Source of the DNA: Streptomyces sp. NL15-2K
GTDB taxonomy: Bacteria > Actinomycetota > Actinomycetes > Streptomycetales > Streptomycetaceae
Reading direction: 5' to 3'
NCBI RefSeq assembly: GCF_030551255.1
Contig: NZ_CP130630.1
Location: forward strand, 11,965,001-12,029,000
Length of the DNA: 64,000 nucleotides
The notes beneath the pieces are model-generated. The model was given only the letters and a program-made list of their open reading frames with translations. It did not search any database and was not told the DNA's origin. A program made the position numbers and the translations under genes. Shown here piece by piece: positions 8,173 to 12,466 of this stretch (positions within the stretch are counted from its first letter, which is position 1; every line of letters starts with the position of its first letter).

Positions 8173-9711
8173 ATGGGCCTGGTGAACGACGGGGAAGGCG
8201 CGGTGGGCGGATCCGCATCGGCCGCCGCACCCAGGGCAGCGGCCGACGGGCTCTCGCCCTACGGCTCCGACTTCCTGCAACTCGACGCCGGTGAGGCGCC
8301 CGGGTCCGGCAAGGCGGACTGGCTGGCCCGACGGCTGCGCCAGGCCATCGCCGACGGCCGGCTGGCGGTGGGCAGCAGACTGCCGCCCACCCGTGTGCTC
8401 GCCGCCGAACTGCGCCTCTCCCGCGGCGTGGTCACCGAGGCCTACCGGCGGCTGACCGAGGACGGCCACGTCGAGGGACGGCGGCGCGGCGGGACGGTGG
8501 TGGTCGCGGCCCCCTCCGCGCCACCGGCGGCACCCTCCCGGAACCCGGCCCTCGCCGCCCGCGCCGACTCCGGCAAGCTGTTCCTCGGCGAACCCGGCGC
8601 CGATGTCTTCGACGCCCTCCGTGCCACGCGGGCCCGCGTCGACTTCACCCCCGGCCAGCCCGATCTTGCCGCCTTCCCCCGCGCGGCCTGGCTGCGCGCG
8701 GAACGGGCCGTACTCACCGAGCTGTCCGCGGAGAACCTCGGCTACGGCGACCCTCGCGGCACCCCGCAGCTGCGTCGCGCCGTCGCCGGATGGCTGGCCC
8801 GCAGCCGCGGCATCCGGGTGGACCCGGACGACGTACTGATCGTCGCCGGCACCGCGCAGGCGCTCACCCTGCTGCACCCGGTGTTGCGCGCCGACGGCAT
8901 CGACGGCATCGCGGTGGAGGACCCGGGCTCGCTCGGCACCCGCCAGCACTTGCTGAACGGAGCTCTCGCCACCCCACCGGTACCGGTCGACGACGACGGT
9001 GTACGCGTGGACGCACTGCGCGCCACCGGCGCCCGCGTTGTGCTGCTCACGCCCGCCCACCAGTTCCCCACCGGCGTGGTGATGAGTGGCGAGCGCCGCC
9101 GCGAGCTGCTGCGCTGGGCCGAGGACGGCGGGCTGATCCTCGAGGACGACTACGACGCGGAACACCGCTACGACCGGCCGCCCGTCCCCGCGCTGCGCGG
9201 GCTGCTCGCCGACCAGGTGTGCTACATGGGCAGCGTGTCCAAGCTGCTGGCGCCCGCGCTGCGGACCGGCTGGCTGGTACCGCCGCCCCGCTACCGCGAA
9301 GCGCTGACCGACGCCAAACGCTTCACCGACCTGGGCAACGCCGTGCTGCCGCAGCTGGTGCTCGCCCGGCTGATGGAATCCGGCGACCTGGAGCGGCACC
9401 TGCGCCTCCTGCGCGGCCGCCACCGGCGGCGCCGCGACGCGATGATCGACGCCATCGCCGAACACCTGCCGGGCGCGGTGGTCCACGGCGCGGCGGCCGG
9501 CCTGCACCTGACCGTCACGTACACGCCGGAGGTGCCCGACACCGAACTGGCCGCCGCCGCGCTCGCCCGAGGCGTGAAGTGCCAGCCACTGTCCTGGCAC
9601 CGACAGATCCCCGGCCGCCCCGGCCTCGTCCTCGGCTACGCGGCCGGCCCCCCGGGCGTCATCGCCGAAGGCGTGGCCGCACTGGGCGAGGCGCTGCGCG
9701 AGCTGGCCTGA
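8173..9711 (+). CDS. MocR/PdxR-family transcriptional regulator
   Basis: A 512-residue fusion of an N-terminal GntR winged helix (residues about 40-110, with LPPTRVLAAELRLSRGVVTEAYRRL) and a C-terminal class-I aminotransferase-like domain. The latter has TPAHQFPTG, DDYDAE and the PLP-lysine region MGSVSKLLAPALR. MocR proteins sense vitamin B6 or amino compounds. This one may regulate the neighbouring B3/B4 gene or the DUF2071 gene, which starts only nine bases after its stop. A GTG three codons in (8182) is an alternative start. Confidence 0.9.
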   Translation: MGLVNDGEGAVGGSASAAAPRAAADGLSPYGSDFLQLDAGEAPGSGKADWLARRLRQAIADGRLAVGSRLPPTRVLAAELRLSRGVVTEAYRRLTEDGHVEGRRRGGTVVVAAPSAPPAAPSRNPALAARADSGKLFLGEPGADVFDALRATRARVDFTPGQPDLAAFPRAAWLRAERAVLTELSAENLGYGDPRGTPQLRRAVAGWLARSRGIRVDPDDVLIVAGTAQALTLLHPVLRADGIDGIAVEDPGSLGTRQHLLNGALATPPVPVDDDGVRVDALRATGARVVLLTPAHQFPTGVVMSGERRRELLRWAEDGGLILEDDYDAEHRYDRPPVPALRGLLADQVCYMGSVSKLLAPALRTGWLVPPPRYREALTDAKRFTDLGNAVLPQLVLARLMESGDLERHLRLLRGRHRRRRDAMIDAIAEHLPGAVVHGAAAGLHLTVTYTPEVPDTELAAAALARGVKCQPLSWHRQIPGRPGLVLGYAAGPPGVIAEGVAALGEALRELA

Positions 9712-9720
9712 CCCTGAGCG

Positions 9721-10518
9721 ATGCAGCACACTGACGCCGTGACGCCGACACCGAAGCCGCACTTCCCCCTACCCCCAGAGCCCATCACGGCCGACGCACC
9801 GGAAGCGATACGGCGCCCTCTCCTCACCCAGTCCTGGCTCGACCTGGCGTTCCTTCACTGGGCCGCGGATCCGGCGGACGTGGCCGGCGTGCTGCCGCCG
9901 GGGACGGTCCCCGACACCCTGAACGGTGTCACCTACGTCGGTCTGGTCGCGTTCCGGATGCACCGCGTCGGCTGGCTCCGCCTCCCCGGAGTCCCCTACC
10001 TCGGCAGCTTCCCCGAGACCAACGTCCGCCTCTACTCGGTGGACGAACACGGTCGGCGCGGCGTCGTCTTCCGCTCACTCGATGCCTCCCGCCTGCTGCC
10101 CGTGGCCGTGGGGCGGCTCGGCTTCCGGATGCCGTACCTGTGGTCCCGTATGGCCGTCCGCACCCACGGCGACACCGTCACCTACACCAGCTCGCGGCGG
10201 TGGCCGGGCCCGCGCGGCGCTCACAGCCGTATCACCGTTCGGGTGGGCGAACAGGTCGAGCGGCCGACCGAGTTGGAGCACTTCCTGACCGCCCGCTGGG
10301 GCATGCACGGCGCTTTCTTCGGCCGGCCGATGTACCTGCCCAACGCGCACCCCCGCTGGTCGTTGCGCCGAGCCGACCTGGTCGAGTGCGATGAGGATCT
10401 GGTGGTCGCGGCAGGCCTGCCCGAACCGGTGGGGGAGCCGGTGAGTGTCCTCTACTCACCCGGAGTCCCGGCCCGCTTCGGCCGCCCGGCCCGCCCGGCC
10501 GGCATCCCGACGCCCTGA
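9721..10518 (+). CDS. DUF2071 (YqjF-like) family protein
   Basis: A 265-residue protein of the YqjF/DUF2071 type, recognised from the early LTQSWLDLAFLHW segment, LPPGTVPDTLNG, the YVGLVAFRM strand, ETNVRLYS, and the late HFLTARWGMHG block. Family members have an acetoacetate-decarboxylase-like fold, and their function is not established. It lies nine bases after the MocR-type regulator and is probably co-transcribed with it. Confidence 0.85.
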   Translation: MQHTDAVTPTPKPHFPLPPEPITADAPEAIRRPLLTQSWLDLAFLHWAADPADVAGVLPPGTVPDTLNGVTYVGLVAFRMHRVGWLRLPGVPYLGSFPETNVRLYSVDEHGRRGVVFRSLDASRLLPVAVGRLGFRMPYLWSRMAVRTHGDTVTYTSSRRWPGPRGAHSRITVRVGEQVERPTELEHFLTARWGMHGAFFGRPMYLPNAHPRWSLRRADLVECDEDLVVAAGLPEPVGEPVSVLYSPGVPARFGRPARPAGIPTP

Positions 10519-10603
10519 CTCGGTTCCGACTCGTCCGGCTGAGCCACACGGAGCGGCTGACCGCCGGGGTGGAAATCACGGCACATGAGCCGTGCACGAT
10601 TGC

Positions 10604-10747
10604 TAACATGAAGATGTGATTTACGTCCTCTATCTCTGACCAGGCCGCAGGCTCCGCTCCTCACACCACCGTTGAGGCGTCGGAAGCCGCGATGCCACCC
10701 ACGGCCCTCCCCCTCCTCTTTCGGGGCCTGGCCGTTTCGTCAGAGAT
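10604..10747 (+). promoter_or_regulatory. Promoter, leader ORF and attenuator ahead of the ABC-F gene
   Basis: A -10-like TAACAT lies at 10604-10609, which would place the start of transcription at or beside the GTG at 10616. The leader stop region atctctgac (10632-10640) pairs perfectly with gtcagagat (10739-10747), and the adjoining caggcc (10641-10646) pairs with ggcctg (10725-10730) across an eight-base bulge. A ribosome held on the leader ORF would cover the 5' arm. This is the layout of ribosome-mediated attenuation known upstream of several antibiotic-resistance ABC-F genes. No clear -35 box is visible. Confidence 0.6.
10616..10639 (+). CDS. Seven-residue leader peptide MIYVLYL
   Basis: A tiny ORF starting with GTG (GTG ATT TAC GTC CTC TAT CTC TGA). 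No ribosome-binding site precedes it, so it would be read as a leaderless message if transcription begins at the GTG. Its hydrophobic aromatic sequence and its overlap with the 5' arm of the attenuator suggest a drug-sensing stall peptide for the downstream ABC-F gene. This is inferred from layout only. Confidence 0.5.
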   Translation: MIYVLYL

Positions 10748-10810
10748 CGAAGGCTCGCTGCCACCCCCCATGACCTGGGGTGAAGTGTGCCTCCTTCCGG
10801 AGGAACAAAC

Positions 10811-12466
<1,656 letters not shown>

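Follow-up and report, generated by a model that had tools for sequence, protein, structure and literature searches.

A predicted leaderless short ORF as candidate translational attenuator ahead of an actinobacterial ABC-F gene

What might a seven-codon reading frame be doing ahead of a probable antibiotic resistance gene? The window, by which we mean the whole 64,000-nucleotide stretch of Streptomyces sp. NL15-2K DNA that was analysed, carries a gene whose product we regard, on sequence grounds, as a probable ribosome-protection (ABC-F) protein. Its nearest NCBIfam models are the TlrC/CarA/OleB/SrmB and the general ribosomal-protection models, and it scores below the curated cut-offs of NF000171 (352 of 800 bits) and NF000355 (335 of 380 bits); AAF4 is the name given to an actinobacterial ABC-F subfamily in PMC6723617 and PMC8546547. 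Upstream of the leader, positions 8173-10518 hold a MocR/PdxR-type regulator and a DUF2071 protein. We propose, with a probability of roughly two in three, that the leader is a translational attenuator in which a leaderless upstream ORF (uORF) would act both as sensor and as anti-Shine-Dalgarno strand, a drug-stalled ribosome on the uORF being the presumed inducing event. The features on which this reading draws are collected in Table 1.

Table 1. Features of the leader, its ABC-F gene and one paralogous locus (window positions unless a contig is given)
Feature	Position	Strand	Remark
WblC-type box GAAATC, exact match to GAAAWY	10572..10577	+	-44 from predicted transcript start
-10 element TAACAT (TANNNT)	10604..10609	+	6 nt before GTG
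uORF GTG ATT TAC GTC CTC TAT CTC TGA, MIYVLYL-stop	10616..10639	+	first base = predicted transcript start
Anti-Shine-Dalgarno segment TCCTCT in uORF	10626..10631	+	6 bp with 10799-10804, predicted fold
ATCTCTGAC, uORF end, stop and one base	10632..10640	+	5' arm of 9-bp helix
Six-base arms CAGGCC/GGCCTG	10641-10646/10725-10730	+	
Local hairpin GGCTCCG...CGGAAGCC	10643..10696	+	inner CCTCA/TGAGG
Local hairpin ACGGCC...GGCCGT, then TTCGTC	10701..10735	+	no T-run beyond TTT; not called terminator
GTCAGAGAT	10739..10747	+	3' arm of 9-bp helix with 10632-10640
Third local hairpin, inner CACCCC/GGGGTG	10751..10792	+	predicted fold
Small local hairpin CCTCCTTCCGGAGG	10790..10803	+	can hold Shine-Dalgarno when uORF occupied (fold prediction)
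Shine-Dalgarno GGAGGA of ABC-F gene	10799..10804	+	
ABC-F gene, 551 aa, two ABC domains	10811..12466	+	NCBIfam profile matches
Paralogue L005	G000:C1:2641851-2643359	reverse	uORF MAILLAH-stop 82 nt before GTG start; TAGACT, 6 nt

The first-pass annotation had described a GTG-initiated ORF encoding MIYVLYL and had placed it at the expected start of transcription, and both points stand: the ORF is present, and its start codon coincides with the start predicted from the spacing of TAACAT. Given that Streptomyces transcripts begin 7-8 bp after the -10 element (PMC7157823) and that TANNNT lies 6-7 nt ahead, transcription is predicted to start on the uORF start codon, so that the uORF looks leaderless from its promoter spacing. 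A close relative, L042, has ATG where the window uORF has GTG, which favours the GTG frame over an overlapping ATG-TGA frame. When we scanned for the combined motif (TANNNT, 6 or 7 nt, ATG or GTG, and an ORF of 6-14 residues), the only occurrence on both strands of the window was the uORF itself; a single one was found in 131 kb of flanks of L031-L043, and shuffled leaders gave 9 in 2100. Rfam returned no match at gathering thresholds over the whole window, and positions 10500-10900 contained no consensus sigma-70 promoter.

We compared 74 loci, of which 54 (group A) encode proteins with at least 61% identity to the window protein, measured on the best segment for L031-L043. Group B comprises 19 loci at 59% identity or less that have a uORF, and L048 was added as a locus with none; L030, whose upstream DNA is masked, and the distant or partial loci L044-L046 were left unused. 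Group A includes 52 distinct proteins, the identical pairs being L037/L063 and L041/L076, and loci from the genus of G522 and from the class were taken from among the matches listed. A search for similar ORFs ahead of related ABC-F genes found one of 6-8 codons (12 in a single case) at all 54 group-A loci examined upstream. TANNNT stands 6-7 nt ahead of the uORF start codon at 72 of the 74 loci, in a scan that allowed 4-9 or 5-8 nt; the two misses are L020, where a uORF lacks TANNNT at the right place, and L048. The latter, an ABC-F relative at 58% identity for which the scan gave no leaderless-type uORF, may lack the leader altogether.

The endings of these peptides are strongly alike. The penultimate codon is aromatic (Phe or Tyr) in 54 of 54 group-A uORFs, the last is Leu in 46 and Ile in 5, and an aromatic-Leu/Ile-stop ending is therefore found in 51; outside the pattern fall L011 (MSYGVYCIFLFV), L040 (MIQALIFN, the peptide of a Rhodococcus) and L059 (MQYLYFG). 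Stops are TGA in 48, TAA in 4 and TAG in 2. Streptomyces peptides include MSYVLYL, MPYVLYL, MSYVFYI and MIYVFYI, while MQYLFFL occurs in Nocardia yamanashiensis, MPYVFYL in Actinoplanes aureus, MQYLYFL in Actinorugispora endophytica and MQWYFFI in a Microbacterium; MHLPLYL, MHYYFL and MHLYFL, the last at 10 of the 54 loci, complete the range of those we cite.

The pairing that co-varies across the family, absent from the first-pass annotation, is that of the uORF with the Shine-Dalgarno and start codon of the ABC-F gene. For its analysis the ABC-F start codons were chosen by hand in 21 loci, by eye in L047 and L049, and by a script based on Shine-Dalgarno strength in 31, and the 30 representatives and 11 far-apart loci used in permutation tests were hand-picked. 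In folded leaders the uORF codons pair with the Shine-Dalgarno and often also with the ABC-F start codon, reaching -29.3 kcal/mol over 18 pairs with one mismatch in L032 and L036. Compared with shuffled start regions, the pairing gave P<=0.05 in 39 of the 54 loci and P<=0.01 in 26. On average, moreover, a uORF is better matched to its own start region than to those belonging to other loci: over 54 loci the own pairing averaged -18.7 kcal/mol versus -15.5 +/- 0.4 when partners were permuted, with none of 20,000 permutations as good, and the same held for 23 loci (0 of 20,000), for 11 far-apart loci (P=0.00015) and for the 30 representatives (-18.96 versus -16.09 +/- 0.51; 0 of 50,000), in the last case also with GGAGG masked (P=0.00004). 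The natural uORF codons pair better than the mean random synonymous recoding in 49 of the 54 loci, which are related to one another. The pairing tests indicate that a leader strand complementary to the Shine-Dalgarno is kept by co-variation across the family, amounting to only 6 bp in the window.

The window duplex is weak, at -11.6 kcal/mol with P values of 0.05 and 0.11 against shuffled start regions, and 67-73% of random synonymous recodings pair as well or better. The first-pass annotation had proposed a different structure, a long-range stem of nine perfect pairs plus six whose 5' arm is the uORF stop region. Both pairs of arms are present, the stop region does serve as the 5' arm, and the nine-pair helix forms in the predicted fold, which places the uORF in a long-range pairing that a ribosome on it could open; the six-pair part does not form, its CAGGCC/GGCCTG bases joining two local hairpins instead. 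In this fold the 9-bp helix adjoins the TCCTCT/GGAGGA pairing, accompanied by three local hairpins. Among 15 aligned Streptomyces sequences this second helix is kept as UCUGA with UC[A/G]GA, with one-sided changes and the first pair broken in 2, and the adjoining C-G pair is A-U in L031 and L049 and a mismatch in L010. The 9-bp stem is a neighbouring helix of the Streptomyces group and not the pairing that co-varies family-wide, and the window member may rely more on it. That the whole arrangement is a chance ORF beside a chance stem is scarcely credible: runs of at least nine perfectly complementary bases linking the uORF (plus 3 nt) to the downstream leader do arise in 17 of 5000 shuffles of the window's downstream part, but the comparative uORF, TANNNT spacing and pairing results contradict such an origin.

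We next considered whether occupation of the uORF would expose the ABC-F start. With the uORF and 12 further nucleotides occupied, the predicted mean openness of the start region rose from 0.23 in the free leader to 0.43, versus 0.25 with a control mask of the same size placed further downstream, and 48 of 54 loci showed an increase. In about eight loci of the G522-genus group (L050-L053, L055, L056, L058 and L062), the start region was opened by the control mask as well. The window copy is not among the risers, its openness passing from 0.39 to 0.38. Because its duplex is weak and its openness is not raised, the claim of translational attenuation rests on the family. Masking 36 nt in the window moved the start codon from 0.06 to 0.85 and the Shine-Dalgarno part from 0.44 to 0.33. 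Over 21 loci, the start codon averaged 0.18 and the Shine-Dalgarno part 0.23 without a mask; the corresponding values were 0.61 and 0.35 with the first 16 nt masked, 0.34 and 0.42 with a 36-nt mask, and 0.17 and 0.24 with the control mask. Since the 16-nt mask opens the start codon, induction in the Streptomyces group could also come from a ribosome that is held on the start codon of the uORF. A 36-nt mask lets the start codon pair again at several Streptomyces loci, and fold prediction suggests that the Shine-Dalgarno may enter a local hairpin once the uORF is occupied. Such a small hairpin over the Shine-Dalgarno (CCTCC-GGAGG or CTCCGTTCGGAG) is seen in several leaders, including those of the window, L015 and L073.

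A leader of this kind could also act on transcription, with the GC-rich hairpin at 10701-10735 ending it early and stalling on the uORF altering whether that hairpin forms. Transcriptional attenuation has been reported for Streptomyces lmrC and are5sc and for msrD, the hairpin is conserved in the 15-sequence alignment, and the six-base arm CAGGCC could pair into it. The pairing would, however, have the wrong sign for induction, as the arm would compete with the hairpin and a stalled ribosome would favour it. No terminator-like site was found in 10500-10900 by a scan for loops of 3-8 (the loop of this hairpin is 9), and the T-run that follows the hairpin is only TTT. Stretches with at least five T in eight bases occur in 11 of 54 leaders at varied places, that of the window lying inside the hairpin loop. 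We therefore consider transcriptional attenuation unlikely.

If the uORF serves as an antisense strand, its peptide could be conserved merely as a by-product, since pyrimidine-rich anti-Shine-Dalgarno codons read Tyr, Phe and Leu. For the same reason, the hydrophobic and aromatic character of the peptide is weak evidence of drug sensing. The last Leu codon is skewed: it is CTC in 39 of 46 uORFs even though these genes use CTG more often (2208 CTG versus 1203 CTC), and CTC is used at 37 of 37 loci with a GGAGG or CGAGGA start region against 2 of 9 others (Fisher 6.7e-7, with classes set after the sequences had been seen). On the tree only 2 independent pairs on supported branches back this correlation, which is then not significant. 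Several observations speak for the peptide in its own right. A Tyr codon whose pairing in the uORF duplex is broken by an A-A mismatch is retained in the Streptomyces group, and this mispairing Tyr is better evidence of drug sensing than composition; most loci read the complementary run in one and the same frame; and MHLYFL is found in two separate clades with different Leu codons, CTG in one of them (L081, L082). Five six-codon uORFs gave pS 0.44 and pN 0.09, and 22 seven-codon uORFs gave pS 0.44 and pN 0.35, which is not far below. On the attenuator reading the uORF would be constrained twice, as sensor peptide and as anti-Shine-Dalgarno RNA, and an origin of the peptide pattern in pairing alone seems improbable to us.

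The promoter raises the question of whether drug control resides there instead. WblC binds GAAAWY (PMC7157823), and WblC/WhiB7 promoters place this motif 3 bp before the -35, followed by a spacer of 16-19, a TANNNT -10 element and a start 7-8 bp on (PMC7157823, PMC3905903). The window matches this layout, with GAAATC, 3 bp, a hexamer, 17 bp, TAACAT and a predicted start 7 bp on; its -35 hexamer GCACAT does not match TKGMNN, and -35 elements are described as less conserved in WblC promoters (PMC7157823). We found exact boxes at 13 of 54 group-A loci including the window, versus 0.1% in shuffles, and matches at 5 of 6 positions at 29, versus 4%. Over 73 uORFs an AT-rich block peaks at -42 (0.81 versus about 0.2 around it), and many related uORFs have an AT-rich WblC/WhiB7-type box at about -45 to -40. 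These boxes suggest dual control. The exact boxes and the AT-rich block would also suit a uORF without drug sensing, whose leaderless translation merely opens or closes the start site while WblC confers drug control at the promoter. We hold this to be quite unlikely: in 25 of the 54 loci not even a match at 5 of 6 positions is present, yet the uORF is kept in all 54, and its peptide ending is conserved beyond what pairing needs.

In the translational attenuator that we favour, transcription would start at the uORF start codon, as its promoter spacing suggests, and the messenger would begin with a leaderless seven-codon ORF. When no ribosome is present, the uORF RNA would pair with the ABC-F Shine-Dalgarno and, in many relatives, with the start codon too, while in the Streptomyces group the uORF end would additionally pair with a second downstream segment; fold prediction and co-variation together suggest that the ABC-F start is thereby hidden. 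A translating ribosome would soon leave the uORF and let the cover re-form, whereas a drug occupying the peptidyl-transferase centre or the peptide tunnel would stall it there and leave the ABC-F start exposed. The aromatic-Leu-stop ending suggests that arrest would fall on or close to the stop codon, as happens on MsrDL under macrolides, and a WblC-type promoter box would add drug-dependent transcription.

In the cat-86 and cmlA attenuators the helix that covers the Shine-Dalgarno has the end of the leader ORF as one of its arms; these attenuators have a conventional leader with its own Shine-Dalgarno, act over a short distance and govern chloramphenicol resistance. MsrDL (MYLIFM) of Streptococcus has a leader with a ribosome-binding site, controls a Rho-independent terminator and favours UAA (PMC10314930). 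The uORFs described here resemble it in encoding a very short hydrophobic peptide with Leu and a penultimate aromatic residue before the stop, ahead of an ABC-F gene, and MHLYFL likewise has six residues, with Leu3 and Phe5 in common. They differ in being predicted leaderless, in having no terminator that we could find and in stopping mostly at UGA (48 of 54). Neither MYLIFM nor a close homologous variant was found among the uORFs, the resemblance of MHLYFL and MQYLFFL being position-wise only; the window peptide is only loosely similar, and we claim no homology. Antibiotic-responsive uORFs also precede the Streptomyces ABC-F genes lmrC, are5sc and tiaA, with induction of tiaA reported in translational fusions only (PMC8546547, PMC12421871). 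Unlike the present uORFs, these are MLV and MVGDDDISG for are5sc and tiaA, with ribosome-binding sites, a terminator/anti-terminator model and ARE5 proteins; the terms 'leaderless' and 'translational attenuation' do not occur in PMC12421871. In cplR of Clostridioides difficile, as we propose here, stalling of a ribosome on the uORF frees an otherwise hidden Shine-Dalgarno, but there the uORF is MRI, a terminator hairpin does the hiding and transcriptional attenuation adds to it (PMC10201436), whereas here the uORF RNA itself is the complementary strand. Mycobacterial leaderless poly-cysteine short ORFs attenuate a downstream gene (cited in PMC9031893), and are likewise actinobacterial; they sense cysteine supply, where the signal here is presumably an antibiotic.

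ABC-F genes under uORF control, also in Streptomyces, leaderless attenuating ORFs in mycobacteria and Shine-Dalgarno-hiding attenuators are all well known. A leaderless uORF of antibiotic type that is antisense to the start of a resistance gene was not found in the literature searched, which covered few subscription papers. Titles and abstract openings of the papers listed on the subject likewise showed no leaderless antibiotic uORF. Searches for the exact peptide strings returned matches unrelated by title, and one for leaderless leader-peptide attenuation in Streptomyces with macrolides gave only a synthetic-biology review.

Sister-clade ABC-F loci (L016-L029, L065-L068 and L085) have leaderless-type uORFs encoding basic peptides, and 16 of their rows nest within group A on a quick tree with SH-aLRT support of 100. 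The peptides are MARGIWSQKVRSAR and variants, MKPW[SF][RL]R endings, MSFIAKPWSRR (MSF..KPW.RR) and MMYTGIASMRLRSCR; the last contains MRLR as in MefAL and ErmDL, and K-V-R and R-T-R fit the '+x+' macrolide-arrest motif described in the same paper (PMC10314930). By extension, the basic peptides would favour macrolides as the signal of the wider family. Against this counts S. lincolnensis, where one of two AAF4 proteins, which may or may not be L031, is raised by clindamycin or by the lincomycin produced (PMC8546547). Group B gave no convincing uORF-start pairing, with P of 0.048-0.96 at the 13 of 19 loci scored; scoring left out L028 (no matched start region), L065-L068 and L085. Several group-B loci with MARGIW have a 7-bp GCTCCGC/GCGGAGC match with P of about 0.05-0.1. 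Within the same genome, 7 of 11 other places with ABC-F paralogues at E<1e-30 were scanned (L002-L008), and L005 has a leaderless-type uORF while the other six do not; its uORF-start pairing has P 0.14. In view of this value and of the unconvincing group-B pairing, we do not extend the antisense feature to all of the leaderless-type uORFs seen here.

We put forward a broader reading tentatively, as one that may well prove wrong. It supposes a class of antibiotic switches in several actinobacterial families, in which one leaderless ORF of 6-8 codons would be both drug sensor, through an aromatic-Leu-stop arrest peptide convergent with MsrDL and halting at the stop codon, and antisense strand over the start of a resistance gene. 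The sister clade would have swapped in basic leader peptides such as MMYTGIASMRLRSCR. From a single ancestral leaderless layout, parallel evolution would then have produced both of the sensor types that in Firmicutes are known from separate systems.

Should the attenuator proposal hold, it would describe a compact design for actinobacteria, in which seven codons serve both as sensor peptide and as anti-start RNA, and would link drug-responsive control to an actinobacterial ABC-F subfamily of which little is known. The natural variants offer a test of what a minimal aromatic-Leu-stop arrest peptide needs, and the uORFs also test leaderless initiation under drugs that block ordinary translation. 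Close ABC-F orthologues are patchy, occurring in 23 of 295 genomes of the genus at E<=1e-150, in 9 of 392 genomes at E<=1e-200, in 3 of 396 across the phylum at E<=1e-140, in 28 of 148 in the genus of G522 at E<=1e-150 and in 25 of 394 across the class at E<=1e-160, counts that include the window's own genome where drawn. In L043 (Microbacterium sp.) the ABC-F frame seems split near its start, two frames being open for 74 and 505 codons, which makes its start region uncertain. L046 (Streptomyces swartbergensis) appears decayed, keeping the beginning of the uORF and an ABC-F match limited to the last residues.
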